From NCBI GenBank assembly GCA_019635875.1, contig JAHBYP010000006.1:186001-250000 (forward strand): a stretch of DNA of 64,000 bases, in the 5' to 3' direction. The stretch comes from Alphaproteobacteria bacterium. GTDB lineage: Bacteria; Pseudomonadota; Alphaproteobacteria; Reyranellales; Reyranellaceae. The notes under the pieces are model-generated. The model searched no databases. It saw only the letters and a list, made by a program, of their open reading frames with translations, and was not told the DNA's origin. Below are positions 5,868-37,094 of the stretch, piece after piece. The translations under genes and the position numbers were made by a program. Position 1 is the first letter of the stretch. Each line of letters begins with the position of its first letter.

Positions 5868-5871
5868 GCGC

Positions 5872-8210: not shown

Positions 8211-8347
8211 TGCCAGCTCCTCCGTGACCGGCCCGAGTATCGCATATCGGCGCGGGCAAGGCGAAACAGTGCTTTTCATCGCCACAAAAATATGCGTGAG
8301 TCCATGGGTCGGCGGGACGGGCGCCGGCCGGCTGGGGTGTGACTGCT

Positions 8348-18058: not shown

Positions 18059-18111
18059 GGCGCGCGAAACCTAACGGGCGGGCCGCCCCGCCGCAACGGG
18101 GGTGTGTCCGA

Positions 18112-19930: not shown

Positions 19931-20940
19931 GGTGCCACCACGATCTTGCCGAAGACTTCGCGGTCCTCGATGACGCGCAGCGCCTCGCGCGCCTGATCGA
20001 GCGGGTAGACCTTGTCGATCAGCACCTTCAGCTCGCCCTTCTGCACCATGTCGAGCAGCGTGATGATGTCCTGGCGCATCCAGCCATTGGAGCCCAGGAT
20101 CTTGAGCTCGAAAGTCCAGATGAAGCGGATGTCCTCTTGGGGCGAGAAGCCCGCCGTCGCGCCGCATGTCAGCAGCCGGCCGCCGACCTTCAGCACTTTC
20201 AGCGACTTCACCCAGGTGTCGCCGCCGGTATAGTTGACGACGACGTCGATGCCCTGCGTGGCACCGGCGCCGCGCCGCGTCGGCTTGCCGTAGTGCCTGT
20301 AGACCTCCTGCTGGAAGTCGTGGGTGACGTAGTTGATGGTGCGGTCGGCGCCCAGGTCGGCCAGCCGCTGCGCCTTGGCGTCGGTGCCGGCGCAGGCGAT
20401 CACCTCGGCGCCGACGCTCTTGGCGAGCTGCAGGCAGCACACGCCGACACCGCCCGATGCGCCGAGGATCAGCACCTTCTCGCCCGAGGCGACGTGACCG
20501 TTGGTGCGCATCATGCGCAAAGCCGTGCCGTAGGCCACCGGCAGCGCGGCGGCGTCGGCGAAGCTCACGCCATCGGGGATGCGCACCAGCTGGTGCGCGC
20601 GCGTGCAGCACAGCTCGGCCAGCCCGCCATGCACGGTTTCGCCCATCAGCCCGCCCTCGACACGGTTGATGGGGTCGACCAGCACGCGATCGCCCTTCTT
20701 CCAGCCCTCGACTCCGGGGCCGATCTCGGCGATCTCGCCGGCGACGTCGAGACCCATGATCGCCGGCATCGGCACCTTGATCCCGGGCATGCCGCGACGG
20801 GTGAAGACGTCGTGGTAGTTCAGCGACGAGGCCTTCACCGCCACGATCACGTCGCCCTCGCCGGGCCTGGGATCGGGGAAATCCTTTTCGAAGGCCAGGC
20901 GCTCGGGCCCGCCATGCTCGCGGACGACGGCTGCTTTCAT
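19927..20940 (-). CDS. Zinc-binding-type alcohol dehydrogenase/quinone oxidoreductase (MDR family)
   Basis: This 337-residue medium-chain reductase starts MKAAVVREHGGPE. It has the catalytic-domain GLDVAGEIAEIGPGVEGWKKGDRV segment and a NADPH-binding LILGASGGVGVCCLQLAK. A Cys pair in the loop LAELCCTRAHQ is not a clear structural zinc site. Members reduce enoyl-CoA, quinone or aldehyde substrates. The gene overlaps both neighbours by four bases, so translation of the whole operon is coupled. Confidence 0.92.
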   Translation of the reverse strand: MKAAVVREHGGPERLAFEKDFPDPRPGEGDVIVAVKASSLNYHDVFTRRGMPGIKVPMPAIMGLDVAGEIAEIGPGVEGWKKGDRVLVDPINRVEGGLMGETVHGGLAELCCTRAHQLVRIPDGVSFADAAALPVAYGTALRMMRTNGHVASGEKVLILGASGGVGVCCLQLAKSVGAEVIACAGTDAKAQRLADLGADRTINYVTHDFQQEVYRHYGKPTRRGAGATQGIDVVVNYTGGDTWVKSLKVLKVGGRLLTCGATAGFSPQEDIRFIWTFELKILGSNGWMRQDIITLLDMVQKGELKVLIDKVYPLDQAREALRVIEDREVFGKIVVAP

Positions 20941-22451: not shown

Positions 22452-23290
22452 CACTCGACGAACTCCAGCACCGCGTTCAGCGCCGCGCGTGCCGGCACGA
22501 CGATTCGACCGTCCTGCGTGACGGACTCGATGCCGCCGGCCTTCAGCGCGCCCGCGGCCTTGCCGAGCGAGAGCGTGCGGAAACTGAGGCCCGCCATGTA
22601 GGCCGGCCGACCCTCGGCGGCGGGTGCTGCGTCGCCGAACTGCCCGCGCAGCGCCGCCTCGGTGACGATGTCGAAGCGCGAATTGCCGATTACCACGCTC
22701 TTGCCGCCGGTGATGTCTCGGATGTTGTCGGGGCCGAACATGTCGGCGTAGAGCTTCGTGCCTTTTGCCGGATCGGGCTCGACGATCAGCGCGCGCGCCA
22801 CCGCCACCGTGCCGTTGGCGTGATGGCGCCACTCGTCGCGCCACACCAGATCGCGCGTGAAGTGATGGCAGTAGTAGACGCGGCCATAGGGCACGACGCC
22901 CGGCTTCATGCGGATGGTGCGAAAGCGCGCGTCGCCCTGGCCGCCGGCGTGCTTCACCGGCCGCGTGAACTCGTTGGGCGGATCGACCGGCACGCCGGCC
23001 GCGCTCAGCGCCGCGTGGGTCACCGCCGAATCCTCCGAGCCGAAGACCAGCCCGTTGAGCCCGTACGGATAGTCGAGCAGGTCCATCCGTCCGGTGCTCG
23101 CGCCCTTCGGAATCGCGATCAGCTCGAGATAGTCGGTGCCGAACATTGCCAGGTGGTTCATCGAGCCCAGCGAATGGTAGCCGCGCTCGGTCAGCGTGAA
23201 GCCGATCCGGCGATAGATGTCGGCGGCGCGGTCCATGTCGTCGCGCGCGTTGATGACCACGTGATCCAGCGTCGCCACGGGCAATGTCAT
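22451..23290 (-). CDS. VOC (glyoxalase-like) domain protein
   Basis: This 279-residue protein begins MTLPVATLDHVVINARD and looks like two beta-alpha-beta-beta-beta modules, with DHVVI and later GRVYYCHHFTRDLVW as likely metal-site strands. It matches the glyoxalase-like domain proteins of about 280 residues. ATG 23290 is preferred over 23320 because GAAGGA lies nine bases upstream. It is the first gene of the overlapping four-gene operon and is divergent from the amidohydrolase at 23386. Function is not known. Confidence 0.86.
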   Translation of the reverse strand: MTLPVATLDHVVINARDDMDRAADIYRRIGFTLTERGYHSLGSMNHLAMFGTDYLELIAIPKGASTGRMDLLDYPYGLNGLVFGSEDSAVTHAALSAAGVPVDPPNEFTRPVKHAGGQGDARFRTIRMKPGVVPYGRVYYCHHFTRDLVWRDEWRHHANGTVAVARALIVEPDPAKGTKLYADMFGPDNIRDITGGKSVVIGNSRFDIVTEAALRGQFGDAAPAAEGRPAYMAGLSFRTLSLGKAAGALKAGGIESVTQDGRIVVPARAALNAVLEFVE

Positions 23291-23385
23291 GCGATGCGTC
23301 CTTCCCTTCGAGCCGGCCAAACGATAGCAGCTACGACGTTGTGCGCCAGCCCGCCGTCGGTCAGGCTCGGCGCGGGGAGAGCGCC

Positions 23386-24480
23386 ATGATCGTCGATTGC
23401 CATGCCCATATCTTCACGCACTGGATCGGCGCCTGCGGTCACGAATCGCGCGAGGTGCACAGGCGCTACCTGCAGCGCGTGGTGACGCGCACGGTGGCGC
23501 CGACCTTCCGGCTGAGCGACGGCGCGCGGGCGGATACGAAGGCGCTCTTCAGGGCCGGCGACGAAAGCTGGAACGGGCTGGCCGATGTCGATTTCCGCGT
23601 CGGCCGCTTCGGCCAGCTCGAGTTCACGCACGCGGGCGAGGACTATGCCGTGCAGTACATGCCGGCGGGCATGCAGGAGCTGACGGCACCGCCCGAGCTG
23701 ATGCTGGCGCAGATGATGAACGCCGGCGTCGATCACTGCCTGCTGCAGGCCGGCGGCGGCTACGGCGCGATGAGCGCGATGAACGCCTTCGCCGAGCGGC
23801 AGTATCCCGAACGCATGACCGGTCTGATGCATGTCGACGACGCGATGGCCGGCAAGCCGGCCCAGCTCGCCGAGATCGACCATGCCTTCGACGTGCTGAA
23901 GCTGCGCGGCCTGTACTTCAACGTCGATTCGATGAGCCGTCACGGCTTCCCCTGGCCGCTCGACGCGCCCGACATGGAGCCGCTCTGGGACAAGCTGGCA
24001 CGCCGCGGCATCGTGCTCTGCCTCGAGCTCAGCTCGGGGCCGGGTTACGACATGGCCGGCTACATGGCGCATGTCGCGGCGTTCAACCGCGTGCTGGCGC
24101 GGCATCCCGGCCTGCGCGTGCATCTGGCGATGAGCCCGCCGGTCGCGTATTTCGCCAGGAACGGTCGCTACGCGTTTCCCGAGGAGCTGCTGCATCTCTA
24201 CCGGCACGAGGCGCTGGTGCTGGAGATGGTGTTTCCCATCACCTATGGCGGCGTCTGGGACTATCCCTATCCCGAGGCGCAGGTGCTGATCGAGTGCCTG
24301 CGCGACCAGCTCGGCGCCGACCGGCTTGTCTGGGGCTCCGACATGCCCAATGTCGAACGCTTCTGCACCTACCGGCAGTCGCTCGACTACATCAGGCGCT
24401 ATTGTCCGTTCCTGACCGCGCGGGAGAAGGACCTGATCCTGGGCGAGAATTGCGCGGCGTTCTACGGAATCGGACAGTGA
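23386..24480 (+). CDS. Amidohydrolase family protein (Amidohydrolase_2 type)
   Basis: This 364-residue TIM-barrel metal-dependent hydrolase has the N-terminal metal motif DCHAHIF (residues 4-10), the strand-4 type LRGLYFNVD segment, and the late WGSDMPNVERFCTY carrying the conserved Asp. The family includes decarboxylases (ACMSD-like) and hydrolases of lactones or amides. GGGGAGA precedes ATG 23386. It is divergent from the acyl-CoA operon, with 95 bases between. A second amidohydrolase follows after a family A repeat, so the two may work in one pathway. Confidence 0.9.
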   Translation: MIVDCHAHIFTHWIGACGHESREVHRRYLQRVVTRTVAPTFRLSDGARADTKALFRAGDESWNGLADVDFRVGRFGQLEFTHAGEDYAVQYMPAGMQELTAPPELMLAQMMNAGVDHCLLQAGGGYGAMSAMNAFAERQYPERMTGLMHVDDAMAGKPAQLAEIDHAFDVLKLRGLYFNVDSMSRHGFPWPLDAPDMEPLWDKLARRGIVLCLELSSGPGYDMAGYMAHVAAFNRVLARHPGLRVHLAMSPPVAYFARNGRYAFPEELLHLYRHEALVLEMVFPITYGGVWDYPYPEAQVLIECLRDQLGADRLVWGSDMPNVERFCTYRQSLDYIRRYCPFLTAREKDLILGENCAAFYGIGQ

Positions 24481-24496
24481 CTCATCGAGCACCCCC

Positions 24497-24564
24497 TGTC
24501 ATTCCGGGCGCAGCGAGGAATCCAGGAAAGTCGCCTGGATTCCTCGCTGCGCTCGGAATGACAG
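24497..24564. repeat. Family A palindromic repeat (copy 2)
   Basis: The inverted repeat begins tgtcattccgggcgcagcg and ends cgctgcgctcggaatgacag. The arms cover almost the whole element with a short loop, so RNA from either strand would fold into one long hairpin. It lies between two co-directional amidohydrolase genes. Confidence 0.88.
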
Positions 24565-24604
24565 GATGGTTTCATTGACGGAATGGAGTGAGGGAGGGAA
24601 CGCG

Positions 24605-25651
24605 ATGTCCACCACATCGTCGAGCGCGATCAGTGCGCATCTGGCTGTGCGGCCGGACTGGCTCGCCCGGCGCCGCGAGCCGGCGCTCGAGCCTGATCTG
24701 CCGATCGTCGATCCGCATCATCACCTGATCGACCGGCCGCAGAGCGGCACCTACCTGCTGAAGGACATCCTGCGCGACATCGACAGCGGCCACAACGTCG
24801 TTGCCACCGTTTACCTCGAATGGCTCTCGATGTACCGCGCCCACGGCCCGGTCGAGCTGCGCCCGGTGGGCGAGATCGAGTTCGCCAACGGAATCGCCGC
24901 GATGTGCGCCAGCGGCGGCTACGGCGTGCCGCGCGTCTGCGCCGGCATCGTCGGCCATGGCGAGCTGACCCTGGGCGCGCGCGTCAGGCCGGTGCTCGAG
25001 GCGATGATCGCGGCGGGCAATGGCCGCTTCCGCGGCATCCGCTTCATCACCGCCAGCGATGCGGACCAGCGCGGCTGGGGCGCCATCGCCACGCGCCCGC
25101 AGGGCTGGCTGCTCGACAGGACGGTGCGCGAGGGCTTCGCGCAGCTGGCGCCGTTGGGCCTGAGCTTCGACGCCTTCATGTATCACCCGCAGCTCGGCGA
25201 CCTTCTCGACCTGGCGCGCGCCTTTCCCGATACGCCGATCTGCCTCAACCATGTCGGCGGCGCGATCGGGCTGGGCCGCTTCCAGGGAAAGCGCGAGGAG
25301 GTCTTCGCCGACTGGCGCGCGAGGATCCGCGACCTGGCGTCATGCGCCAACGTGCACGTCAAGCTGGGCGGCATGGGCATGCAGGTGTTCGGCTTCGACT
25401 TCCACGAGGGCGAGCTGCCGCCGGACTCCGAGCGGCTGGCGGCGGCGTGGCGGCCCTATGTCGAGACCTGCATCGAGGCCTTCGGCGCGAAGCGCGCGAT
25501 GTTCGAGAGCAACTTCCCGGTCGACAAGGGATCGTACGGCTACGGCGTGTTCTGGAACGCCTGCAAGCGCCTGGCCGCGGGCGCCAGCGCGGACGAGAAG
25601 GCCGACCTGTTCCACGGCACCGCCTCGCGCTTCTACCGGCTCGGTCTTTGA
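24605..25651 (+). CDS. Amidohydrolase family protein (second)
   Basis: This 348-residue Amidohydrolase_2 protein has the metal motif DPHHHLID near residue 37 and the FESNFPVDKGSYGY region, in which the conserved late Asp precedes KGS. Start ATG 24605 follows GAGGGAGGG at about seven bases. It differs from the preceding amidohydrolase, and resembles enzymes annotated as putative lactonases or hydrolases of the 2-pyrone type, but substrate is not deducible. A family B repeat begins within ten bases after its stop. Confidence 0.9.
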   Translation: MSTTSSSAISAHLAVRPDWLARRREPALEPDLPIVDPHHHLIDRPQSGTYLLKDILRDIDSGHNVVATVYLEWLSMYRAHGPVELRPVGEIEFANGIAAMCASGGYGVPRVCAGIVGHGELTLGARVRPVLEAMIAAGNGRFRGIRFITASDADQRGWGAIATRPQGWLLDRTVREGFAQLAPLGLSFDAFMYHPQLGDLLDLARAFPDTPICLNHVGGAIGLGRFQGKREEVFADWRARIRDLASCANVHVKLGGMGMQVFGFDFHEGELPPDSERLAAAWRPYVETCIEAFGAKRAMFESNFPVDKGSYGYGVFWNACKRLAAGASADEKADLFHGTASRFYRLGL

Positions 25652-25657
25652 GCATGT

Positions 25658-25779
25658 TCCCTCTCCCCGCTTGCGGGGAGAGGGTCAGGGTGAGGGGTTG
25701 CGGCAAGTGGCGCACTATGGCCGTGCGCAACCTGAATCAGCCTCTCACCCCAACCCTCTCCCCGCATGCGGGGAGAGGG
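25658..25779. repeat. Family B double-hairpin repeat (copy 1)
   Basis: Two short hairpins, each of the form ccctctccccgc-N-gcggggagaggg, flank a linker that carries ttgcg...cctgaatcagcc. The element is about 122 bases long and the outer arms are themselves inverted relative to each other. It lies between the convergent amidohydrolase and MDR genes. Confidence 0.88.
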
Positions 25780-25785
25780 GGAGAC

Positions 25786-26709
25786 TCAGCGCACTTTCAG
25801 CACCAGCTTGCCCTTGAGGTGGCGCGCGGCGCTGACCGTCAGGGCTGCCGAGGCCTGCGCCAGATCGTACAGCGTCACCTCGGGCGCGCGGATGGCGCCG
25901 GCCTGGCGCAGCGCGACGATGCGCTCCAGGTGCGGCCGGTCGCGGCCGACCGCCGGGCGCAGCGACGTGACGTCGGTGCGCTCGGATGTCGGCGCCTTGG
26001 CGCCCGAGGCGATGAAGGCGGCGCGGCCGCCGGGCCTGAGCACGGCGAAAGAGCGGGTGGCGACGTCGCCGCCGACGGTGTCGAACACCGCGTCGCAATC
26101 CTTCACCACCTGGGTGAAGTCCGCGGCGTTGTAGTCGATGACCTCGTCGGCGCCAAGTTCGCGCAGGTAGTCGCGGTTCTTCGCGCTCGCCGTGGTGATG
26201 ACGCGCGCGCCGATATGCTTGGCGAGCTGGATGGCGAAGCCCGCCACGCCGCCGGCGCCGCCCTGGATCAGGATGGTCTCGCCGGCCTTCAGCTTCAGCG
26301 TGTCCTCGACCGTGCACAGCGCGGTCAGCCCGGTGAGCGCCAGCGCCGCGGCCTCGACATGGCTCATGCCCGCCGGCTTCTTCGCCACGATGGCGCCGCC
26401 GATGGCGATCTTCTCGGCGTAGGTGCCGTCGCGGCCGGCCTCCAGCACGCCGAATACCTCGTCGCCGACCTTCAGGTCGCGCACGCCCTCGCCAAGCGCG
26501 GCGACGACGCCGGAGAAGTCGCGACCCAGCACCAGCGGGAATATCGGACTGCCGGGATACTCGCCGGCGCAGACCTTCCAGTCGGCGGCGTTGATGCTGG
26601 TGGCGTGCGCATCGACGACGATCTGGCCCGGTCCGGCGGCCGGATCGGGCAGGTCGCCGTAGGTGAGCACCTCCGGCCCGCCGAACTTCTCGATGAAAGC
26701 GGCCTTCAT
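25786..26709 (-). CDS. NADP-dependent MDR oxidoreductase (quinone oxidoreductase-like)
   Basis: This 307-residue MDR protein starts MKAAFIEKFGGPEV. It has GRDFSGVVAALGEGV in the catalytic domain and a nucleotide-binding LIQGGAGGVAGFAIQLAK. No zinc-ligating Cys cluster is visible, so it is probably of the zinc-free quinone-reductase type. ATG 26709 is preferred over the frame opening at 26853, which lies in a repeat. Its 3' end touches family B copy 1, and a family C element lies upstream. Confidence 0.92.
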   Translation of the reverse strand: MKAAFIEKFGGPEVLTYGDLPDPAAGPGQIVVDAHATSINAADWKVCAGEYPGSPIFPLVLGRDFSGVVAALGEGVRDLKVGDEVFGVLEAGRDGTYAEKIAIGGAIVAKKPAGMSHVEAAALALTGLTALCTVEDTLKLKAGETILIQGGAGGVAGFAIQLAKHIGARVITTASAKNRDYLRELGADEVIDYNAADFTQVVKDCDAVFDTVGGDVATRSFAVLRPGGRAAFIASGAKAPTSERTDVTSLRPAVGRDRPHLERIVALRQAGAIRAPEVTLYDLAQASAALTVSAARHLKGKLVLKVR

Positions 26710-26794
26710 GATGGATGGGTCCTTGCGATGGATGACGGCGCGGCGCGGATGATAGCCGCCGAGGCGGAGCGACGACAGATGCGTCGTCTGGGCT

Positions 26795-26916
26795 TCCCTT
26801 CCCCCGGAAGGGGGAAGGTGGCGCGCAGCGCCGGATGGGGGATGCCTCAACACACGCGGTGTCCGTCTTCGACATCCCCCTTCCGCCGTTCGGGCACCTT
26901 CCCCCTCCGGGGGATG
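26795..26916. repeat. Family C palindromic repeat (copy 1)
   Basis: Outer arms cttcccccgg-aagggggaaggt and ccttccccctccgggggat are inverted repeats; an inner pair gggggatg and catcccccttcc flanks a variable centre with gtgtccgtcttcgacat. The element is about 122 bases. It lies between the MDR gene and the TPR gene on the minus strand. Confidence 0.87.
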
Positions 26917-26931
26917 GCAATCGCAGTGTCG

Positions 26932-27690
26932 CTACAATCCGTACGGCGCGAGCAGCTTGTCGACGTCGACGCGGATGCGCATGGCGGCGCCGATGTCAGC
27001 GGCGGCGGCCTCGGCGTGGCCCTTGGCCTTGCGCGCCAGGCCGCGGCCGTAGAGCGAGAACGGGCGATTGGCATCGATGCGCAGCGCGGCGCTGTAGTCG
27101 GCGATGGCGGCGTCGTAGCGGCCGGCCATGTGATGTGCCAGGCCGCGATTCTCGAAACCGAACACGTTCTTCGGCCGCAGCCGCAGCGCCCGGTCGAGAT
27201 CGGGCATGGCGCGATCGACATCCTTCTTCTTCAGGTGGGCGATGGCACGGGAGATCCGGAAGTCTGCGCTGCCGGGTCGCAGGCGGATCGCCTCGCTGTA
27301 ATCCTCGATCGCGCGGTCCTCCTTGCCCTGGTCGCTGTAGGCGTGCCCGCGGTTGATCAGGACGTCCGCCTGGCGCGGTTTCAGCCGCAGCGACTCGTCG
27401 TAGTCGCGCATCGCGCCGGCGTGGTCGCCCTTGCGGCCATGGGCGCTGCCCCTGATGTAGTGGGCCTTGGCCCTGTTGTCCGCGCTCTCGCGCTTCGATC
27501 CGATCACCGCGGTGCAGCCGGCAATGGCGATGTCGGGATTGCGATCGGCGCAACGCTTCCAGCTGTCGGGCTGCGCGGGCCGGGCCGGCCTGGCGGCCTT
27601 GGTCGGCGTCGTCTGCGCCGGCGCGTCGACCGCGCCCAGCGCCACGACGAGCGCCAGCGCCCACGCGGCGCCTGCTCTCCGCTGCTGCAT
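26932..27690 (-). CDS. Secreted tetratricopeptide-repeat protein
   Basis: This 252-residue protein has a signal peptide (MQQRRAGAAWALALVVALGA) and then CADRNPDIAIAGCTAVIGS followed by about five TPR units with DRAIEDYSEAIRLRP-like helices. The C-terminal LYGRGLARKAKG segment recurs in the larger TPR protein at 46736-47770. Both belong to a family of periplasmic TPR proteins common in alphaproteobacteria; the partner is unknown. The start at 27690 has GGGGAGCAGGA upstream. An upstream in-frame ATG at 27774 lies in a family A repeat and is rejected. Confidence 0.88.
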   Translation of the reverse strand: MQQRRAGAAWALALVVALGAVDAPAQTTPTKAARPARPAQPDSWKRCADRNPDIAIAGCTAVIGSKRESADNRAKAHYIRGSAHGRKGDHAGAMRDYDESLRLKPRQADVLINRGHAYSDQGKEDRAIEDYSEAIRLRPGSADFRISRAIAHLKKKDVDRAMPDLDRALRLRPKNVFGFENRGLAHHMAGRYDAAIADYSAALRIDANRPFSLYGRGLARKAKGHAEAAAADIGAAMRIRVDVDKLLAPYGL

Positions 27691-27773
27691 TCCTGCTCCC
27701 CCTGGAGGCCCGTTGTCGCGGACCCGGGCGGCAGCGTAGCGCGAGGGCGCTGTGGGCAACCAGTCGTGAGTCA

Positions 27774-27842
27774 TGTCATCCCGAGCGCAGCGAGGGATCC
27801 AGGAAGGTTGACTGGATCCCTCGCTGTCGCTCGGGACGACAG
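27774..27842. repeat. Family A palindromic repeat (copy 3)
   Basis: The inverted repeat begins tgtcatcccgagcgcagcg and ends cgctcgggacgacag, with a loop near gaaggttgac. It lies between the tctC stop (27851) and the TPR gene start, where it could terminate or stabilise RNA. Confidence 0.87.
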
Positions 27843-27850
27843 CGAGGACG

Positions 27851-28822
27851 CTACCGCATCTTCAGCGCCCATTCCGTGTACTTGGTCGCCTGCTTGTGCA
27901 GGTCGGCGTAGTACTTGGCGTATTCGGCGCCGACCATCGGCCGCAGCGCCAGGCCGGCGGCATCCATCTTGGTCTTCATGTCGGCGCTGTTGATCGCCTT
28001 GAGGAAGGCGGCCTCGAGCACCTTGATCGCGGCGGCCGGCGTGCCCTTGGGCGCCGCCACGCCGCGCGTCGAGCTGGAGATGATGGTCGGGTAGCCAAGC
28101 TCCTTGGTGGTCGGAACGTCGGGCAGGAAGGGCGAGCGCACGTGGTCGGTCACCGCCAGGCCGCGCACCTCGCCCGACAGCACGCGCTTGACCACGCTGC
28201 CGACGTTGTCGAAGGCCACGTCGACATGGCCGCCGATGACGCCGGCGAGCTGCTGCACGCCGCTGTCAAAATGCACGATGCGGAACTCCACGCCGGCCGC
28301 CTCGTGGGTCATCAGGATGGCGAGGTGGTCGTCGCTCAGGATGCCGGTGGTGCAGGCACGCACCGTGTTGGGCGCCTTCTTCGCCGCGTCGACCAGGTCC
28401 TTCATGTTCTTGAACGGGCTGTCGCCCTTGACCCAGATCAGGCCGGGGTCGAGCACCTGGTTGGCGACCGGGATGAAGCTCTCCATGTTGAAGACGGCCT
28501 TGCGCTCGGGATCGAGCACGATGGTGTTGACCGCCGGCAGGTTGATGAAGCCCAGCGTGTAGCCGTCGGGCCGCGCGCGGGCGATCTCGGTGAAGCCGAG
28601 CTGGCCGCCGGCGCCCGCCTTGTTGACCACGGTGACGGTCTGGCCGAGCTCCTTCTCGGCCGCGGCGGCGAGGATGCGCGCGCCCACGTCGGTGCTGCCG
28701 CCGGCGGCGAAGGCGACGATGAGCTGCAGCCCGCGGCGCGGGAAGGCGGCCTGGGCGATCGTCGGGCTGGCGAGCGCGCTGGCCGCCGTGGCGGCGAGCA
28801 ATGTGCGACGACGGATGATCAT
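27851..28822 (-). CDS. tctC: Tripartite tricarboxylate transporter substrate-binding protein (TctC/Bug family)
   Basis: This 323-residue periplasmic binding protein has an N-terminal RRRTLLAATAASALA export signal, which may be Tat-dependent, and the family motif FAAGGSTDVGAR near residue 45. The body shows KAGAGGQLG, DGYTLGFI and the late LGYPTIISSSTRG. Start 28822 has a strong AGGAGG. TctC delivers a carboxylate to TctA/TctB. The other two subunits are encoded upstream on the same strand, with repeats between. The ligand is not known. Confidence 0.93.
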   Translation of the reverse strand: MIIRRRTLLAATAASALASPTIAQAAFPRRGLQLIVAFAAGGSTDVGARILAAAAEKELGQTVTVVNKAGAGGQLGFTEIARARPDGYTLGFINLPAVNTIVLDPERKAVFNMESFIPVANQVLDPGLIWVKGDSPFKNMKDLVDAAKKAPNTVRACTTGILSDDHLAILMTHEAAGVEFRIVHFDSGVQQLAGVIGGHVDVAFDNVGSVVKRVLSGEVRGLAVTDHVRSPFLPDVPTTKELGYPTIISSSTRGVAAPKGTPAAAIKVLEAAFLKAINSADMKTKMDAAGLALRPMVGAEYAKYYADLHKQATKYTEWALKMR

Positions 28823-28844
28823 CTGGTGTTTCCTCCTTTGGTGT

Positions 28845-28967
28845 TCCCTCTCCCCGCGAGCGGGGAGAGGGTTAGGGTGAGGGGTAGCGGCTGGTTGCGC
28901 ACGACGGTGGTGCGTCACCTGATTCAGCCCCTCACCCCGACCCTCTCCCCGCGAGCGGGGAGAGGGA
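28845..28967. repeat. Family B double-hairpin repeat (copy 2)
   Basis: It has the same organisation as the copy at 25658: two ccctctccccgcgagcgggg-type hairpins around a linker with gatggtgcg-like and cctgattcagcc sequence. It occupies the space between tctA and tctC, so transcription through it would place a structured RNA between two transporter genes. Confidence 0.87.
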
Positions 28968-28975
28968 GATTGACC

Positions 28976-30475
28976 TCACTCGGCATCGCTTTCCCTCAGC
29001 TTGGAGAAGGTGCGGGGGCGCAGCAACATCGCGGCCAGCACGATCAGCGGGATCGCCAGCAGCGCCAGCGCCACCGGGCGGTCGAGAAAGATGGCGAAGC
29101 TGCCACCGGAGATCTCCAGCGTGGTGCGCAGCGACTTCTCCATCATCGGTCCCAGGATCAGCGCCAGGATCGCCGGCGCCAGCGGGAAGTCGAGCTTGCG
29201 CAGCAGGTAGCCGATGATTCCGAAGCCCAGCATGACCCAGACGTCGAACATGCTCTGCTTCAGGCTGTAGGAGCCGATGATGCAGAAGATCAGCACGCCG
29301 ACGCAGAGATAGCCGAACGGGATCCTCAGCAGCCTGGCCCACATCCCGACCAGCGGCAGGTTGAGGATCAGCAGGATCAGGTTGCCGACGAAGAAGCTGG
29401 CGATCACCGTCCACACCAGGTCGGGCCGCTCCTGGAACAGGAAGGGCCCGGGCTGCAGGCCGTGAATGATGAAGGCGCCCATCAGCACGGCGATGGTCGG
29501 CGAGCTCGGGATGCCGAGCGACAGCAGCGGCACCATGGCGCCGTTGGCGTAGGAGTTGTTCGCCGTCTCGGCCGCCGCCACGCCCTCGACGGCGCCCTTG
29601 CCGAAGCGCTTCGGCGTCTTCGACACGCGCTTCTCCAGCACATAGGCTATGAAGGTCGGCACGATGGCGCCGACGCCGGGAATCAGGCCGAGCACGAAGC
29701 CCACGCCGGTTCCGCGGGCGATCGCGCCGCGCGAGAGCCGCCACTCCTCCTTGCTGAGGTTCCAGTTCTTCAGGTCGGCCTGGATCAGGCGCGCCTGGCG
29801 CCTCTCGGCGGCGATCAAGAGCTCGCCGATGCCGAACAGGCCCATCACCACGGGCACGAAGCCGACACCGTCGATCAGCTCGTTGACGCCATAGGTGAAG
29901 CGCGGCGCGCCGCGCACCGGATCGAGCCCGACCATGGCGAGCAGCAGCCCGACGATGGTCATCAGCAGCGCCGCCCACATGTTGTTGCCGGCCAGCCCGA
30001 CCACCAGGCACAGACCGGCCACCATCAGGGCGAAGAACTCGGCCGGCCCGAACTTCAGCGCCAGCGACGCCAGCGGCGCGGCGACCAGCACAAGTGCCAC
30101 GGTCGCGAAGATGCCGCCGACGAAGGAGCCGATGGCGGCGATCGCCAGTGCCGAGCCGGCGCGGCCCTGGCGTGCCATCTGGTGGCCGTCGATGCAGGTG
30201 ATCACCGAGGCCGCCTCGCCCGGCACGTTGATCAGCACCGAGGTCACGGTGCCGCCATACATCGCGCCGTAGTAGATCGCCGCCAGCATGATGATGGCGC
30301 CGGTCGGATCGAGGTTGAAGGTGATCGGGATCAGGATCGCCGTGCCGGCCGCCGGCCCCAGCCCCGGCAGCACGCCGATCAGCGTGCCCAGCGTGCAGCC
30401 GGCGAAGGCGTAGAGCAGGTAGTTCCAGCTGAGTGCCGCGGCGAAGCCGGACATCAGATGACCAAGCGCTTCCAT
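28976..30475 (-). CDS. tctA: Tripartite tricarboxylate transporter large membrane subunit TctA
   Basis: This 499-residue TctA has about eleven to twelve transmembrane segments. It shows the conserved GVLPGLGPAAGTAIL region near residue 38, AIYYGAMYGGT, and ANNSYANGAMVPLLSLGIPSSPTIAVLMGA (recognisable in parts). It is a cation-coupled carboxylate permease. The next gene on the minus strand is tctB, separated by a 302-base stretch of repeats. Confidence 0.95.
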   Translation of the reverse strand: MEALGHLMSGFAAALSWNYLLYAFAGCTLGTLIGVLPGLGPAAGTAILIPITFNLDPTGAIIMLAAIYYGAMYGGTVTSVLINVPGEAASVITCIDGHQMARQGRAGSALAIAAIGSFVGGIFATVALVLVAAPLASLALKFGPAEFFALMVAGLCLVVGLAGNNMWAALLMTIVGLLLAMVGLDPVRGAPRFTYGVNELIDGVGFVPVVMGLFGIGELLIAAERRQARLIQADLKNWNLSKEEWRLSRGAIARGTGVGFVLGLIPGVGAIVPTFIAYVLEKRVSKTPKRFGKGAVEGVAAAETANNSYANGAMVPLLSLGIPSSPTIAVLMGAFIIHGLQPGPFLFQERPDLVWTVIASFFVGNLILLILNLPLVGMWARLLRIPFGYLCVGVLIFCIIGSYSLKQSMFDVWVMLGFGIIGYLLRKLDFPLAPAILALILGPMMEKSLRTTLEISGGSFAIFLDRPVALALLAIPLIVLAAMLLRPRTFSKLRESDAE

Positions 30476-30528
30476 CGGCTAACTCATGTTTCCTTTGCCC
30501 GCCGGTGCGGGAAGGCAGGAGTGGCGCC

Positions 30529-30751
30529 GTCATTCCGGGCGCAGCGAGGGATAGGGCGATCGCCTATGGATTTCTGACTTCCCTTCCCCCGGAGGGGGAA
30601 GGTGGCGCGCGCAGCGCGACGGAAGGGGGATGCCGCAACGAAATCGGTGTCCGTCTTCGACATCCCCCTTCCGCCCTTCGGGCACCTTCCCCCTCCGGGG
30701 GAAGGTAAGACCCGGGCAAATCGGCCATAGGCGATAGCCCCGGCGTGACAG
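30529..30751. repeat. Composite repeat: family C element nested inside a family A-like element
   Basis: The outer arms are gtcattccgggcgcagcgagg at 30529 and gcgtgacagg near 30751, with matching atcgcctatgg and ccataggcgat at 30558-30569 and 30725-30735. Between them, from about 30581 to 30706, lies a whole family C element (copy 2) with arms cttcccccggagggggaagg and ccttccccctccgggggaagg. The remainder of the 302-base tctB-tctA gap holds nothing recognisable. Confidence 0.72.
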
Positions 30752-30777
30752 GGGAGGTCGCTCGACGGACTCATGCC

Positions 30778-31248
30778 CTAGATCCCGAACCGGCCGACGG
30801 GCAGCAGCACGTCGAGCCAGGTGGTGAACACGTAGAACACCCCGACGCTGCCCAGCACGGCGAAGAGCGCGATCACCCACCAGCGGCGCTCGCCGAGCGC
30901 GACGGCGAGCGCGGCGTTGAACGCCAGCATGGTGATGCGGAAGCCCAGCACCTCCATGGCGGCGGCGGCGGCGGCGAGCATCAGCACGATGGCGAACCAG
31001 CGGCCGGCCCCCGGGCCGCTGGGCAGGATGCGCTCGGCCTCGCCGTCTACCGGCGCGGCGGCCGGCTCGCCGACGGTGGCGACCAGCAGACCGATCGCCA
31101 GCACCACGCCGATCAGCGCCATCCAGAAGGGAAAGAAGCCCGGCCCCGGCCCGAGCCGGTCGGTGAGCGGCAGCAGCCAGGACTGCCAGGCGGCGAACAG
31201 GCAGAACGCCAGCATCACGCCCGTCGCGACAAGCCTGCCCTGGCGCAT
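30778..31248 (-). CDS. tctB: Tripartite tricarboxylate transporter small membrane subunit TctB
   Basis: This 156-residue protein has about four transmembrane segments and the TctB-type start MRQGRLVATGVMLAFCLFAAW followed by GPGPGFFPFWMALIG. It contains the characteristic C-terminal WLDVLLPVG. ATG 31248 has GGAGGGC upstream; a longer frame to 31317 is less likely. It forms the membrane complex with TctA. Confidence 0.9.
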   Translation of the reverse strand: MRQGRLVATGVMLAFCLFAAWQSWLLPLTDRLGPGPGFFPFWMALIGVVLAIGLLVATVGEPAAAPVDGEAERILPSGPGAGRWFAIVLMLAAAAAAMEVLGFRITMLAFNAALAVALGERRWWVIALFAVLGSVGVFYVFTTWLDVLLPVGRFGI

Positions 31249-31360
31249 CCTGCGCGCCCTCCCGCTGTTCTTTCGTTGTTCGCGCCGGCAGCATAGCGGC
31301 AAAAGGGACGGGCGCAACGCGGCGCCGGCGGAAGAAGTGAAGCGACGCGACGGCCGCTAT

Positions 31361-32044
31361 TCAGCCTCCCGCGTCGCCCAGCATGCGGTCCGCCAGGCTG
31401 TAGCAGTGGCTCGCCTGGTAGGCGTTGCGGCCCCGGTTCATGTGCGTGAGGTTGAACGCCCGGATCGCCCGCAACGTCCGGCGACCGGCGAGGAACTTGC
31501 CGATCGAGGCGGCGCCGCGGACCCTGATGCCGAAGATGTCCCGGCCACGCGGGAAGAACCAGCTGACGTCTTGCGGCTCCCTGACGCTGCGCTCGAGCAA
31601 GGCCTCGTCCACCCGGTCCTGATCGATTGAACGGTCTGACGTGAAATCGGACAGATGCACCACGAACAGCGCGCGGATGCCCGCGCCGTCGGCGTAGAGC
31701 GAGAACAGCTCCATCCAGCTCGCATTGACGCGAACCAGCGCCTTGCCCGGCGTCGACGGCAGGCAGGACACCGACCAGTAATCCCGCTCGGTCCGGCGCG
31801 GGATGGGGATGCAGTCGCGGCCGTAGCGCCGGAGCATCGCCAGCACCTCCGGCGCCTGCGGCCGGCGCAGCAGCTTCTCGAACCGTGTGACGTATCTGAG
31901 ACGCAGCTCCAGCGACTCCGAGCGCTCCTCGGCGTCGCGCGGGACCGTCTTGCCCTGCATCCAGTCGCGCTGCTGCTGGAGATCCAGGAAGCGGCGCAGG
32001 CCGGTGGTGCTGGGTGGGCGAGTCGCGCTCTCGTCGGGTATCAT
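31361..32044 (-). CDS. Hypothetical protein, 227 residues, soluble
   Basis: No family is recognised. The protein is rich in Arg and Leu, with a segment YWSVSCLPSTPGKALVRVNASWMELF and a later FNLTHMNRGRN. There is no signal peptide or membrane helix. Codon use is as GC-rich as the housekeeping neighbours, unlike the three genes that follow. The start ATG 32044 is preceded by GGGATT. It faces away from the HEPN-like gene. Confidence 0.55.
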   Translation of the reverse strand: MIPDESATRPPSTTGLRRFLDLQQQRDWMQGKTVPRDAEERSESLELRLRYVTRFEKLLRRPQAPEVLAMLRRYGRDCIPIPRRTERDYWSVSCLPSTPGKALVRVNASWMELFSLYADGAGIRALFVVHLSDFTSDRSIDQDRVDEALLERSVREPQDVSWFFPRGRDIFGIRVRGAASIGKFLAGRRTLRAIRAFNLTHMNRGRNAYQASHCYSLADRMLGDAGG

Positions 32045-32127
32045 GGAAGCAATCCCGTGCTCTTCCTCAGGCTGTAGACTGATGGTATCGGGCTTGCGTT
32101 GTTGTCTGGAGAGGTACGATCACTCCT

Positions 32128-32922
32128 ATGAGGCCAACATACTCGACCGAAGCGATCAAACAGCTTCATGAGGGCCTAGAGTCCGTCCATCCGAAATATA
32201 CCAAGCTCCTGATGGCCTATCATGCCTGGGCATACGGTAATCCTTTGGCCGAAGTCATGGCGCGGCAAGGTTACTGTCGCCGGCTCCGCATCCTCGTCCA
32301 CTGCGTCCAGACGGCATTCGCTACTATTCCACCTGCGTCCAATGTGATCCCGTCCGACGAACCCCGGAGTGTGTGCACAATCTGCCTTCAGGCGTTCGTT
32401 TTGAATGTCTTTGGCTGCATGGACAATCTCGCCCAGATTTGGGTCAAAGAGCGTGGCATCAAGAGGTCTAATGGCAAGGAAATACCCCCACTCCTTATGG
32501 GCTTAGGAGCGAAGTGTGAGGACGTTCGAGAGTCGCTTTCTAGAGACTTCCAAGACTATCTCGATTCCAGCCTCATGAAGGGATGGTTCGCTTATCTGGA
32601 AGACTACCGGCATGCGCTCGCACACCGCATACCGCTGTACATCCCACCACATGCGGTAGGGCAATCTAACGCCGCTGCGTACAACGAGCTGGAGAATAGG
32701 ATGCGCGAGGCGCGACATCGCCTCGATATGGACGAGCACGATCGCCTTGAAGCAGAACAGTTGCAGCTGTGCAGCTTTCTCCCGGTGGCGACACATGCTT
32801 GGGACGAGACGACGCGTCCGATCCTCTTCCATAGCCAGATGCTTGCCGACTACGAAACTGTCGTTGACCTTGGTTGGCGTATGCTCAGAGAACTCGATCC
32901 AAGCACAAGCGCTGCGCGGTAA
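32128..32922 (+). CDS. HEPN-like protein of unknown function (accessory stretch)
   Basis: This 264-residue soluble protein contains the segment DYRHALAHRIPLY at about residues 168-180. An Arg followed after four residues by His (R-x4-H) fits the catalytic motif of HEPN ribonucleases. A long alpha-helical N-terminus surrounds ILVHCVQTAFA and LQAFVLNVFGCMDNLAQ. The base composition is clearly lower in GC than its surroundings, and codon use is less biased, a sign of recent acquisition. Its 3' end converges on the GIY-YIG gene. The HEPN call is by motif only and is tentative; nothing shows whether it is toxic or defensive. Confidence 0.55.
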   Translation: MRPTYSTEAIKQLHEGLESVHPKYTKLLMAYHAWAYGNPLAEVMARQGYCRRLRILVHCVQTAFATIPPASNVIPSDEPRSVCTICLQAFVLNVFGCMDNLAQIWVKERGIKRSNGKEIPPLLMGLGAKCEDVRESLSRDFQDYLDSSLMKGWFAYLEDYRHALAHRIPLYIPPHAVGQSNAAAYNELENRMREARHRLDMDEHDRLEAEQLQLCSFLPVATHAWDETTRPILFHSQMLADYETVVDLGWRMLRELDPSTSAAR

Positions 32923-32969
32923 CGAAGGGGGAGCTGTCCAACGCCAGCGAGAGGAAAGGCGCTTGTGTT

Positions 32970-33743
32970 TCAGCCAGTCTCTTGAACGAACTTCACGATG
33001 CTTTCGACCTCATCAAGCGTGGTATCAAACCACTCCGTGCCAGGGGCATCGCGCTTGCGCCCGCGTGCACGCAAAATTGAGTGGATCGCTTGCTCAACGG
33101 CAGCCACCTGCTGAACCTTCCATGTGCGCAGGACTGTGGGATTCTCGAAGCAGCACGTCTGCCTGCATTGCTGCTGAACTCGTGCATCCGCGTCATCTGC
33201 TCGAGTCAAGCCGATCTTGATTGGGAATCTCACTCCTTCCCGAACAATCGTCGGAAATGAATACATGTAAATGAAGCCCGCGGTGTCCACAAAACCGACA
33301 GGTCCAGCCTCCTCATCAGCGATTGCATCGGGATCGGCATCCGCCTCGGCTATCTCTTCATCCTCTTCTAAGTTGGAGACATTCCTGAACATGCCGTCTC
33401 CGACTCGCTCAAAAATACGAAGATTCTTCGCAAGGAACGGTATGTAGAAACCAAAGATTCTACTCATCCTCTGGAGCACATCGGACTGCGCTTTGCGAAT
33501 CTGAATATCGAGCTGTTCCCTCGTGTAGGTGTCGTTCAGCACCTTCTTGGATAGGTCCCGCAACAGAAAGGGGACGTCGCCGTACGGACGCGCAAGTTCG
33601 ACGATGCGTGGGAGTATCTCATACCGGGTTGCCTTGTAGACGTAGGAGCGTGTCGGTTCGAACGGAATGGCCATCGTGATCACCCCCAGTACGGGCGCAG
33701 GCGCGCCTTCAATCATTAGATCGACGCGCGGAAAGTATGGCAA
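32970..33743 (-). CDS. T5orf172/GIY-YIG-superfamily domain protein
   Basis: This 257-residue protein is split by an acidic linker (NLEEDEEIAEADADPDAIAD). The C-terminal part has FIYMYSFP, then PIKIGLTR with Arg spaced after the Lys, and a later EQAIHSILRARGRKR...EWF. That resembles the T5orf172/MUG113 branch of the GIY-YIG nuclease fold (YxY, KIGxT, Arg, His, Glu, WF). The N-terminal half (PRVDLMIEGAP to about residue 120) is helical and unassigned. The start ATG 33743 has AAGGTGA upstream; ATG 33674 is an alternative. It reads toward the HEPN-like gene. Confidence 0.65.
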   Translation of the reverse strand: MPYFPRVDLMIEGAPAPVLGVITMAIPFEPTRSYVYKATRYEILPRIVELARPYGDVPFLLRDLSKKVLNDTYTREQLDIQIRKAQSDVLQRMSRIFGFYIPFLAKNLRIFERVGDGMFRNVSNLEEDEEIAEADADPDAIADEEAGPVGFVDTAGFIYMYSFPTIVREGVRFPIKIGLTRADDADARVQQQCRQTCCFENPTVLRTWKVQQVAAVEQAIHSILRARGRKRDAPGTEWFDTTLDEVESIVKFVQETG

Positions 33744-33790
33744 TCACCTTACGTGCGCGCGCTTTTGTACTCGGAAGCGCGATGTGGGCG

Positions 33791-34663
33791 TTAGTCGTTG
33801 AGCAGCCGGGGATTGTCCTGCACTTGCAGTCCGTTGCGCCAAAGCGGCTCGAGAAGACTAAGCTCGATGCGGCCGTAGACTCGCTCGCGAGCTCGGTGGA
33901 TGAGGGATGCGTTGACCTTGGCTGCGAGGTCAGAGTGATCTGCCCGCGCGATGTTCTCAGCGAAAGCCTCCGTATGGGCAGCGACGAACATGCTCCGGGG
34001 CGATAGCGGCATCACGATCGAGAACTGAGGGTGGCTCGGGTTCTGCCAGAACCAGAGCGGTCGGTCAGTAGTGATGAGGGGCGCATTGGAATCGGGGATA
34101 GTGTGGGCGGACCACTTGAGGTCTACATACTCCCGGATACGGTCCGAATTTGTGATGTGGCGGGCCATCGTATCGAGGCCGAAGTTGTCGATCAGGCCAG
34201 GGTAGTGCTTGTCGATCCACTCGACGAATGTCGCTTCCGACGCGCTGCCCTTGGCGCGCTCGTACTCATCGGGGTTCTTGAGAAATGCTTCGCGGGCGCT
34301 AGCTGCATACTTGGCCCGCGCCTCGTTGACGATGCCGGGTACGCGGGCGTTGGCGGCGATCAGGAAAACCGCCCAAGCAGCACGCTCGTCCGGGGTCAGA
34401 TCACAGTCCTCGAGCTGTAGCATCTTGCGGTGGATCGGCGCGGCCGCGTTGTCGATCGGACTAAACAGGCTCTCTTCGATGATGTGACGCTCTGTATCGG
34501 GGACCTTGTCCTTGGCGTAGAGGTCATCCTCGTAGCCCGTGTTCTCCGGCGTCCGCCGGCCGGGCACGATGCGGTCGTTGATCCACTGATAAAAGGGGAC
34601 TTTGCCGTCTGGCTGCTCGGCCCACTGCTTGAGATAGAAGACGGGCACGTAGTGATGCCGCAC
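33791..34663 (-). CDS. DUF4238 family protein
   Basis: The frame encodes 290 residues from GTG 34663, preceded by CGGAG at six bases; a TTG at 34693 is the alternative. The N-terminal RHHYVPVFYLKQWA is the DUF4238 hallmark, and LITTDRPLWFWQNP and FVAAHTE are further conserved segments. The biochemical function of DUF4238 is unknown. It is co-directional with the GIY-YIG gene (47-base gap) and probably co-transcribed. GC content and codon use are lower than those of the polyprenyl synthetase next to it. Confidence 0.8.
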   Translation of the reverse strand: MRHHYVPVFYLKQWAEQPDGKVPFYQWINDRIVPGRRTPENTGYEDDLYAKDKVPDTERHIIEESLFSPIDNAAAPIHRKMLQLEDCDLTPDERAAWAVFLIAANARVPGIVNEARAKYAASAREAFLKNPDEYERAKGSASEATFVEWIDKHYPGLIDNFGLDTMARHITNSDRIREYVDLKWSAHTIPDSNAPLITTDRPLWFWQNPSHPQFSIVMPLSPRSMFVAAHTEAFAENIARADHSDLAAKVNASLIHRARERVYGRIELSLLEPLWRNGLQVQDNPRLLND

Positions 34664-34702
34664 GTTCGGCTCCGCTCCTTTGCGGCTTCCCAAACTGTGG
34701 CC

Positions 34703-35719
34703 TCAATGCGCCCGCTCGATCGCGAAATCGACCGCCTCGACCATCGCCCGCTTCACCGCGCTGTCCCCAAACAACCCCAGCGCATCGCGCGCCATCGCAC
34801 CGTAATGCCGTGCGCGATCCAGCGTATCGGCCAGCGCCCCATGCTTCTGCATCAGCTCCAGCGCGCGCTGCAGGTCCGCGTCGTTCTGCTCGAGCTTCTC
34901 CATCACCCGCTTCCAGAACGCCCGCTCCTCGGCGTCGCCGCGCAGGAAGGCGAGGATCACCGGCAGGGTGACCTTGCCCTCGCGGAAATCGTCGCCCACC
35001 GCCTTGCCGAGCTTGGCGGCGCTGCCGCCGTAGTCGAGCGCGTCGTCGACCAGCTGGAAGGCGATGCCGAGGTTCAGGCCGTAGGCGGCCAGCGCGTCGC
35101 GCTCGGCGCGCGGGCGGCCGGCGATCACCGGCGAGACCTCGGCGGCGGCGGCGAACAGCTTGGCAGTCTTGGCCTTGATGACGTCCATGTAGACGCCTTC
35201 GCCGATCGAGATGTTGTTGGCGACGGTGAGCTGCAGCACCTCGCCCTCGGCGATCACGCTCGAGGCGTTGCTGAGGATGCCCAGCACCTCGATCGAGCCG
35301 ACCTCGACCATCAGCTCGAAGGCGCGGGTGAAGAGGAAGTCGCCGACCAGGACGGAGGCCTTGTTGCCCCACACCGCGTTGGCCGCCGGCTTGCCGCGGC
35401 GCAGGTCCGAGCCGTCGACCACGTCGTCGTGCAGCAGGGTGGCGGAGTGGATGAACTCGACGCAGGCGGCGAGCTGCACGTGGTGCTCGCCGTTGTAGCC
35501 GCAGAGCTTGGCGGCGGCGATGGTCAGCAGCGGTCGCATGCGCTTGCCGCCGGCGCCCACCAGGTAGTCGGCGAGCTTGGGGATCAGCTGCACCGAGGAC
35601 TGCATGCCCGAGGCGATCACGCGGTTGACGCGCTCGAGATCCTGGGCGCACAGCGCCAGCAGCGGCTCCAGACTCGGGCCCCTGCGGCGCTTGTCGTCCA
35701 GCGTTACCACCACGGCCAT
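34703..35719 (-). CDS. Polyprenyl (octaprenyl-like) diphosphate synthase
   Basis: This 338-residue trans-prenyltransferase makes the quinone side-chain precursor. The first Asp-rich motif is in LLHDDVVDGSDLRRGKP and the second in FQLVDDALDYGG; the GGKRMRP motif is also present. ATG 35719 is chosen because MAVVVTLDDKRRRGPSLEPL is a plausible start, with GGGGAT upstream. The product length (C40, C45 or C50) cannot be read here. It is divergent from the methyltransferase gene, separated by family B and C repeats. Confidence 0.95.
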   Translation of the reverse strand: MAVVVTLDDKRRRGPSLEPLLALCAQDLERVNRVIASGMQSSVQLIPKLADYLVGAGGKRMRPLLTIAAAKLCGYNGEHHVQLAACVEFIHSATLLHDDVVDGSDLRRGKPAANAVWGNKASVLVGDFLFTRAFELMVEVGSIEVLGILSNASSVIAEGEVLQLTVANNISIGEGVYMDVIKAKTAKLFAAAAEVSPVIAGRPRAERDALAAYGLNLGIAFQLVDDALDYGGSAAKLGKAVGDDFREGKVTLPVILAFLRGDAEERAFWKRVMEKLEQNDADLQRALELMQKHGALADTLDRARHYGAMARDALGLFGDSAVKRAMVEAVDFAIERAH

Positions 35720-35825
35720 GTCGCATCCCCATTTCCCTGGGCGACGTGTCGCACGCTCAAGATGTTGGCGCAATGCGAACCGGCGACAAGCCGCACCGTT
35801 GTCGCGGATGGCGATTTACCTTTTT

Positions 35826-35948
35826 CTCCCTCTCCCCGCTCGCGGGGAGAGGGTCGGGGTGGGGTCGTAGCAGATTGGGCACGACGGCGGTGCGCCACCT
35901 GAATCAGCCCCTCACCCCAACCCTCTCCCCGCAGGCGGGGAGAGGGAG
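35826..35948. repeat. Family B double-hairpin repeat (copy 3)
   Basis: Hairpins ccctctccccgctcgcggggag and ccctctccccgcaggcgggg flank a linker with gtgcgccacctgaatcagcc. The element lies in the divergent space between the polyprenyl synthase and the methyltransferase. Confidence 0.87.
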
Positions 35949-36888: not shown

Positions 36889-37013
36889 CTCCCTCTCCCC
36901 GCGTGCGGGGAGAGGGTCGGGGTGAGGGGGCGATTGAGGTTGCGCACGATGGTGGTGCGCCACTCGATGCAGCCCCTCACCCCAACCCTCTCCCCGCAGG
37001 CGGGGAGAGGGAG
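36889..37013. repeat. Family B double-hairpin repeat (copy 4)
   Basis: The left hairpin ccctctccccgcgtgcgggg and right hairpin ccctctccccgcaggcgggg flank a linker with gtggtgcgccactcgatgcagcc. It lies between the methyltransferase and S49 peptidase genes. Confidence 0.87.
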
Positions 37014-37094
37014 TGATGAGCGCCGCTGGAGCGGCGCGGCCCCAACGGCCAAGGCCCTTGCACTCGCGCCGCCGCACCCGACATATGACGGCGC

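Follow-up and report, generated by a model that had tools for sequence, protein, structure and literature searches.

Tha, a HEPN protein with anti-phage activity that is encoded by Staphylococcus aureus prophages, is 301 amino acids long, carries an R265-x4-H270 motif and degrades RNA when phage tail proteins appear (PMC11087260). A survey of the HEPN superfamily describes several stand-alone families, including Cthe_2314, which has no associated genes, and a mobile HEPN found in integron cassettes (PMC3710099). The T5orf172 domain is a GIY-YIG nuclease domain akin to those of putative homing endonucleases, and the phage ICP1 protein Odn, which bears it, cuts DNA (PMC8263062). Finally, one DUF4238 protein, from a P2-phage hotspot, makes cells strongly resistant to T7 without any partner gene (PMC9122126), and later surveys include DUF4238 among defence systems (PMC10855318, PMC12629846, PMC11291487). 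Here we consider three adjacent low-GC genes, encoding a HEPN-like, a T5orf172/GIY-YIG and a DUF4238 protein, in a 64,000-nucleotide stretch (the window; positions 186,001 to 250,000 of contig JAHBYP010000006.1, assembly GCA_019635875.1) of the 6.2 Mb genome of an alphaproteobacterium of the Reyranellaceae.

We think it probable, if some way from certain, that these three genes are separately acquired single-gene cargo of an anti-phage or toxin (that is, conflict) type, lying at a recurrently rewritten site that adjoins a polyprenyl synthase gene at its 3′ end. The reasons for favouring separate acquisition are the foreign composition of the genes, their absence from two genomes of the same genus, the independent distribution of the three families and the lone-gene composition of the HEPN-like family. 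A sequence-only reading of the window had seen in them the layout of a defence or toxin module; the defence flavour of that suggestion stands, given the action of a DUF4238 protein against T7 (PMC9122126) and the presence of two nuclease-type proteins, but a joint module is not supported, since the families are found together nowhere else that was searched. What was tempting as a three-gene defence module looks, from its distribution, more like a landing site at which single genes of conflict type have gathered.

Foreign composition and a variable site

That the three genes differ from their surroundings, as the sequence-only reading had noticed, is plain from their base composition. The HEPN-like gene (32128–32922, forward strand, 264 amino acids), the T5orf172/GIY-YIG gene (32970–33674, reverse strand, 234 amino acids) and the DUF4238 gene (33791–34663, reverse strand, 290 amino acids), called like all genes here by a simple open reading frame (ORF) heuristic, have GC contents of 55.3%, 53.9% and 61.1% (the last for a form with a TTG start), thus 54–61% as against 67–75% in nine neighbouring genes. 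The GC content of third codon positions (GC3), used in place of a codon-adaptation index, is 63%, 62% and 77%, as against 91–95% in the same neighbours. Relative to 38 other ORF calls of the window, some of them spurious, the GC z-scores are -7.9, -8.5 and -4.5, and the GC profile drops from 0.69–0.70 to 0.55–0.56 across the block and recovers at the polyprenyl synthase gene. The composition of the three genes is foreign, and the clearly lower AT content of the DUF4238 gene suggests that it arrived separately from the other two; more widely, DUF4238 genes lie below the GC content of their flanks (at most 1.5 kb on each side) in 16 of 18 loci. The HEPN-like gene converges on the T5orf172 and DUF4238 genes, which are co-oriented, an arrangement that the sequence-only reading had itself counted against a single operon.

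The site itself is variable, with different content at the same place in the source genome (G000) and in two genomes of its genus, G002 and G004. Blastn homology with G002 ends at window position 31321, just past tctB (30778–31317, reverse strand), which is conserved there as the left flank, and restarts at 34703, the stop codon of the polyprenyl synthase gene (34703–35773, reverse strand), the same interval in G002 being filled by 6.8 kb of other, mostly high-GC genes. This homology break, together with the comparison of junctions, defines a variable segment at 31322–34702, whose fixed edge is the synthase 3′ end in a conserved flank. In G004 about 5.5 kb of other low-GC DNA (0.53–0.61) comes after the synthase, and beyond it stands a second, direct copy of the gene's final 366 bp, with 98% identity along 256 bp and 93% along 110 bp; the two copies, at L046:1579-1945 and 8076-8441, enclose about 6 kb of mostly low-GC DNA. 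Of the three genomes compared, G004 alone has this repeat, which suggests recurrent rearrangement at the synthase 3′ end. All four synthase 3′ junctions (one each in G000 and G002, two in G004) match up to the stop codon and then diverge, with a few extra bases beyond it in common between G000 and one G004 junction. Since coding constraint alone would also yield a sharp edge, the differing neighbours are the stronger evidence. None of the four genes of the variable segment was found elsewhere in G002 or G004. As side observations, the repeat-bounded DNA of G004 holds an aminotransferase-like gene (so named by reading) and other ORFs, and a remnant of tctB (73% over 176 bp) adjoins the synthase 3′ copy.

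The distribution of the families points the same way. Among 75 genomes of the family (E <= 1e-3), the HEPN-like gene is present in 3, the T5orf172 gene in 1 and the DUF4238 gene in 8, and all three occur only in the source genome; with this and the different DNA at the site in G002 and G004, conservation of the genes in all relatives, which would have refuted the sequence-only reading, does not hold. The two other HEPN-like copies in the family show 41–48% identity, and one is divided between two contigs. In 385 genomes of the class the counts are 6 (E <= 1e-8), 2 (E <= 1e-10) and 11 (E <= 1e-5), and the only genome besides the source to have two of the families is G217, with its HEPN-like and DUF4238 genes about 506 kb apart. 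At the other DUF4238 loci examined in the family (L002, L008-L014, L056-L062, some on short contigs), HEPN-like and T5orf172 genes are not alongside. With the families distributed independently and no other genome of the 75 and the 385 holding all three, a conserved three-gene module was rejected. To say that the families never meet elsewhere would nonetheless be too strong, because HEPN-like and DUF4238 genes lie close together in two further settings, discussed below.

The wider surroundings also seem to have been rearranged. A synthase match is present in 73 of the 75 family genomes, and in five genomes of two other genera (L047-L050 and L052, by blastn) the next gene after the synthase, at a distance of 20–190 bp in four of them and of about 1 kb in the fifth, is a homologue of the gene at 17543–18058 (reverse strand) of our window. 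Here that gene lies 16.6 kb from the synthase, so the interval has expanded in this genome. We read the gene as apt, and the names tct and synthase are likewise presumed from reading the sequences and not from a database match. The filled interval is 18060–34700, and within it the stretch of G002 that was read gives no long blastn match to a segment at 25.7–27.85 kb.

The variable segment is larger than the block first described, which was limited to the three low-GC genes. It also includes a 227-amino-acid gene (31361–32044, reverse strand; 68.9% GC, GC3 91%) with no family in our scans, which has native composition, unlike its three neighbours, and is found in 2 of the 75 family genomes; a copy in G072, of another genus, is 82% identical. 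A classical integrative island was considered and rejected. As the sequence-only reading had it, there is no tRNA in the 64-kb window and no integrase, in a Pfam scan, among the segment's four proteins; nor were flanking direct repeats typical of an integrative element found at the segment. The sole exact pair noted on its flanks, a direct one of 16 nucleotides (31923–31938 and 34923–34938, 3000 bp apart), does bracket the low-GC block, with 0.06 matches expected by chance (for a pattern with one mismatch allowed), but both copies lie inside coding sequences and the window has 15 other exact pairs of at least 16 nucleotides at 2–5 kb spacing. Outside the segment, dispersed inverted repeats of about 110–140 bp occur at 25658–25782, 28845–28968, 35819–35948 and 36889–37014 (CCCTCTCCCCGC... 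type); repeats of this type were also matched in G002 and G004, forming a REP-like family.

A HEPN-like family that seems to travel alone

The HEPN-like protein has the R-x4-H motif noticed in the sequence-only reading. Its R161 and H166 do not vary across 57 aligned relatives, and the motif is present in all 71 copies of at least 230 amino acids. Our scan of a genome collection was seeded by the pattern [LA]AHR[IM]P[LP]Y[IV], so that conservation of those residues is circular in loci L072-L151; H166 lies inside the pattern and R161 outside it, and both are also invariant in 8 relatives obtained without it. That one scan gave 89 relatives, of which 80 were retained, mostly (judging by record titles) from alphaproteobacteria, with others from beta-, gamma- and deltaproteobacteria, Nitrospirota, Chlorobiaceae and further groups. 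Four homologues (at L084, L114, L118 and L140) are spread over two frames, as possible pseudogenes or sequencing errors, and may reflect loss after arrival.

The databases know this family hardly at all. Searches with the window protein gave nothing in Pfam (E <= 10), nor in PADLOC, NCBIfam and PHROGs (E <= 1). Among the 57 members, one matches HEPN_Cthe2314 at 1.3e-5, and HEPN_Apea (0.058) and HEPN_Swt1 (0.089) are each matched weakly once, amid other families at chance level; NCBIfam gives none, PADLOC one weak match and a single unnamed PHROG two weak ones. No similarity emerged when a neighbouring protein annotated for abortive infection was compared by profile, PF18730 has 3 matches in 200 genomes of the phylum, none above its cut-off, and a sequence search of the PDB with the family alignment gave no match. 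The AlphaFold2 model, almost all helical, has a predicted local distance difference test score (pLDDT) of 95.8, and VIA-align superposes it on HepT structures with Z 7.8 and a root-mean-square deviation (rmsd) of 3.0–3.2 over 116–118 of 128–131 residues, about 90% of the HepT domain, a score no higher than that of unrelated helical bundles; Foldseek returned nothing at E <= 0.001, and likewise against viral models. On the motif and these weak links we assign the protein to HEPN as HEPN-like, and it is probably an RNase-type effector.

In the 60 or 61 of the 80 loci long enough for GC statistics, the HEPN-like gene has the lowest GC content in 38 of 60 (6.5 expected) and the lowest GC3 in 28 of 60 (6.8 expected), and it lies more than 3 GC points under its flanks in 48 of 61 and above them in 5. 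Relative to distant flanks, GC content dips by 9.2 points in the gene itself, by some 4 points over the adjoining 400 bp and by no more than about 2 further out. Neighbour scans covered 130 of 152 nearest-neighbour proteins, 22 (including the longest) having been set aside by hand, and each PADLOC family matched turned up a single time and each Pfam family at most twice; of the 142 Pfam families among these neighbours 25 were listed, and many of those are metabolic. The 25 listed of 103 PADLOC families include a type I methyltransferase, a CBASS-type cyclase, PD-T4-3, mad2 and AbiEi, one member each, from which, the scan having covered these neighbours alone, we draw no enrichment. With the dip limited to the gene and no recurrent neighbour among the 130 scanned, the HEPN-like gene seems to travel alone.

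Relatives are found on 15 plasmid records, 12 of them typed as conjugative and 7 of the 15 distant (25–27% identity), and on two related phage contigs, L090 and L170, in which the gene lies between those for the portal and the S49 protease (phage genes assigned by Pfam in L090 and by likeness to L090 in L170). We offer more tentatively, as a possibility we would not yet bank on, the idea that the family is an uncatalogued class of phage-triggered RNase that needs no partner and spreads through bacteria as one AT-rich gene. It would insert by itself between unrelated genes, on conjugative plasmids and within operons of phage head genes; in the latter, structural proteins being made by the phage could serve both as its driver and as its trigger. 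To us the most useful new item is the lone-gene behaviour of the family. With 89 genome matches, almost no presence (among the 57 members scanned) in Pfam, NCBIfam, PHROGs or PADLOC, and the marks of lone-gene transfer, the family is an easy candidate for any single-gene screen for phage defence.

The other two proteins, and the readings weighed

The T5orf172 protein is, as had been read from its sequence, a C-terminal T5orf172/GIY-YIG domain (PF10544, E=2e-14, 54.3 bits against a curated cut-off of 20) joined by an acidic linker to an N-terminal region without a recognised family. It also matches the PADLOC phage-defence candidate PDC-S57 (E=3e-7, 28 bits) and an unnamed PHROG (E=1.7e-4); a PDB sequence search gave no match, and tblastn gave none in plasmids or phages. 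Its longest ORF begins at a TTG at 33743 (257 amino acids, 32970–33743), and the ATG at 33674 appears to be the better start because the only close relative starts there. R165 and E194, numbered in the 234-residue form, are kept in that relative, and from the family pattern described in PMC8263062 we infer that they would be catalytic.

The DUF4238 protein matches PF14022 above the curated cut-off and along the full domain (E=1.2e-36, 127 bits, profile positions 1–278 of 281), and residues invariant in 18 sequences include H13, H14, E73, R104, R117, D210 and N261. The longest form of the gene starts at a TTG at 34693 (300 amino acids, 33791–34693); we prefer the GTG at 34663 because relatives start directly before HHYVP. 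The predicted structure (pLDDT 89) has no credible match among solved structures by Foldseek and VIA-align (best Z 2.5), a result that does not make the fold a novel one, and a PDB sequence search with the family alignment gave none. Tblastn found no match to the protein in phages, and viral contigs scanned with the DUF4238 and GIY-YIG proteins held no relative.

The HEPN-like protein is predicted to be an RNase acting through its R-x4-H motif and activated by an infection cue, after which the infected cell would stop growing (abortive infection); the DUF4238 protein would block a phage on its own; and the T5orf172 protein is predicted to bind DNA with its N-terminal part and cut it with its GIY-YIG domain. 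The likeliest effector would be a phage-triggered RNase.

A number of points do, of course, weigh against this picture of separately acquired cargo. The RNase, DNase and anti-phage activities of the window proteins are predictions, and the window DUF4238 protein may be far from the member tested, given that it has no match in PADLOC-DB 2.0.0 at E <= 1. Unrelated seven-helix membrane proteins reach Z 9.1 with the HEPN-like model, at larger rmsd, so that HepT does not stand above the unrelated helical bundles of the same comparison. The low GC content of the HEPN-like gene could come partly from amino-acid composition, though GC3 agrees with it. The site was compared in two genomes of the genus, a third (G003, 67% complete) having no synthase match, and the T5orf172 and DUF4238 genes could be co-transcribed. 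HEPN-like relatives are scarce among phages, with a single weak match (26.8%, E=1e-4) in 50,697 phage records and 4 loci in viral contigs. Moreover, HEPN-like and DUF4238 genes do meet: on the Sinorhizobium meliloti plasmid pRmeGR4a a DUF4238 gene, a short ORF and a HEPN-like gene follow one another on the same strand, the pair recurs at equal spacing on a second S. meliloti plasmid, and L090:3304-8033 carries DUF4238 upstream of the portal gene as well as the HEPN-like gene. The one DUF4238 neighbour seen among the HEPN-like genome loci is a mild excess over the roughly 0.02 expected in 0.88 Mb of such loci, an estimate from PF14022 in 12 of 181 class genomes with rounded genome sizes.

The alternative that survives best, which we nevertheless consider unlikely, is that the genes are debris, selfish or in decay: a GIY-YIG nuclease of the homing type together with orphan toxins, without a present role in defence. 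The resemblance of T5orf172 to domains of putative homing endonucleases (PMC8263062), the rearranged state of the region (the 366-bp copy in G004 and the displaced synthase-adjacent gene, 16.6 kb off here) and the broken HEPN homologues elsewhere would suit it, yet all three frames here are open and family-typical and retain conserved residues, and low-GC HEPN-like genes persist in many phyla.

The meetings described above raise a second idea, that the HEPN-like and DUF4238 genes form a two-gene system into which the GIY-YIG gene was later inserted. Consecutive genes on pRmeGR4a, the same spacing on a second plasmid and joint presence in L090 all speak for it. Against this, a DUF4238 gene lies within the fetched flanks of 1 of 80 HEPN-like genome loci (counted with a profile built partly from sequences that it then found), the orientation differs in all three settings, and a DUF4238 protein works alone against T7 (PMC9122126). 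In addition, L170:2584-7033 keeps its HEPN-like gene between portal and protease while a different gene, of 142 amino acids, occupies the slot that holds DUF4238 in L090. We regard such a system as very improbable, and an obligate pair was rejected on the 1 of 80 loci and on L170; the two families come together in mobile settings but do not make up a fixed pair. Incidentally, the slot before the portal gene looks like a point in a head-gene operon at which single genes are exchanged.

A further possibility, to which we give just as little weight, is that the HEPN-like protein belongs, as toxin, to a HEPN/MNT-type pair of which the antitoxin is now missing or encoded at another place. In Reyranella massiliensis (L082) a nucleotidyltransferase-domain gene (5523–5915, PF01909, E=1.2e-7) precedes the HEPN homologue (5962–6771) on the same strand, with 46 bp between them, near genes that look prophage-derived by reading, and a HEPN/MNT-like pair is possible in that species alone. 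No nucleotidyltransferase gene stands beside the window copy, whose neighbours are the 227-residue protein and the T5orf172 gene, and no such family is among the 25 listed (of 142) Pfam families of the 130 neighbours, a set that does not include the R. massiliensis gene. Least probable of all is one rare defence module of two nucleases and an accessory protein: the genes are adjacent, all AT-rich and jointly absent from G002 and G004, but they are not together elsewhere in the genomes searched, the HEPN-like gene is convergent, the DUF4238 gene is less AT-rich in a way that suggests separate arrival, and each family occurs mostly without the others, all three having been seen singly in other genomes.

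Comparison with described systems

Nothing relevant to defence systems in Reyranella was among the literature matches listed. Taking separately acquired conflict genes as the preferred reading, the DUF4238 gene is best likened to the P2-like hotspot system of Escherichia coli, with which it has in common the Pfam family, the single-gene format and a variable hotspot (PMC9122126); the likeness is one of family, and a defence role is predicted for the window protein on that analogy. Odn (Gp88) of phage ICP1 resembles the T5orf172 protein in placing a C-terminal T5orf172 domain after a different N-terminal part. It is, however, phage-borne with a RepA_N-like N-terminal part, whereas the window protein is chromosomal and its N-terminus has no recognised family (PMC8263062).

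For the HEPN-like protein two comparisons suggest themselves. HepT of the MntA-HepT pair (PDB 6m6w, 7bxo and 6m6u) has the R-x4-6H toxin motif in common with it (PMC7641770), but the window protein is twice as long and no antitoxin gene adjoins it. Tha, the tail-activated protein of S. aureus phages, is likewise a single protein of comparable length (301 versus 264 amino acids) with an R-x4-H motif. It differs in that its HEPN domain is C-terminal and that a phage-encoded inhibitor is described, and we liken the two by description and not by sequence; the trigger and the RNase activity have been shown for Tha and are predicted for the window protein (PMC11087260). As with Tha, some relatives of the window protein sit among phage genes, and the window protein may have a HEPN fold.

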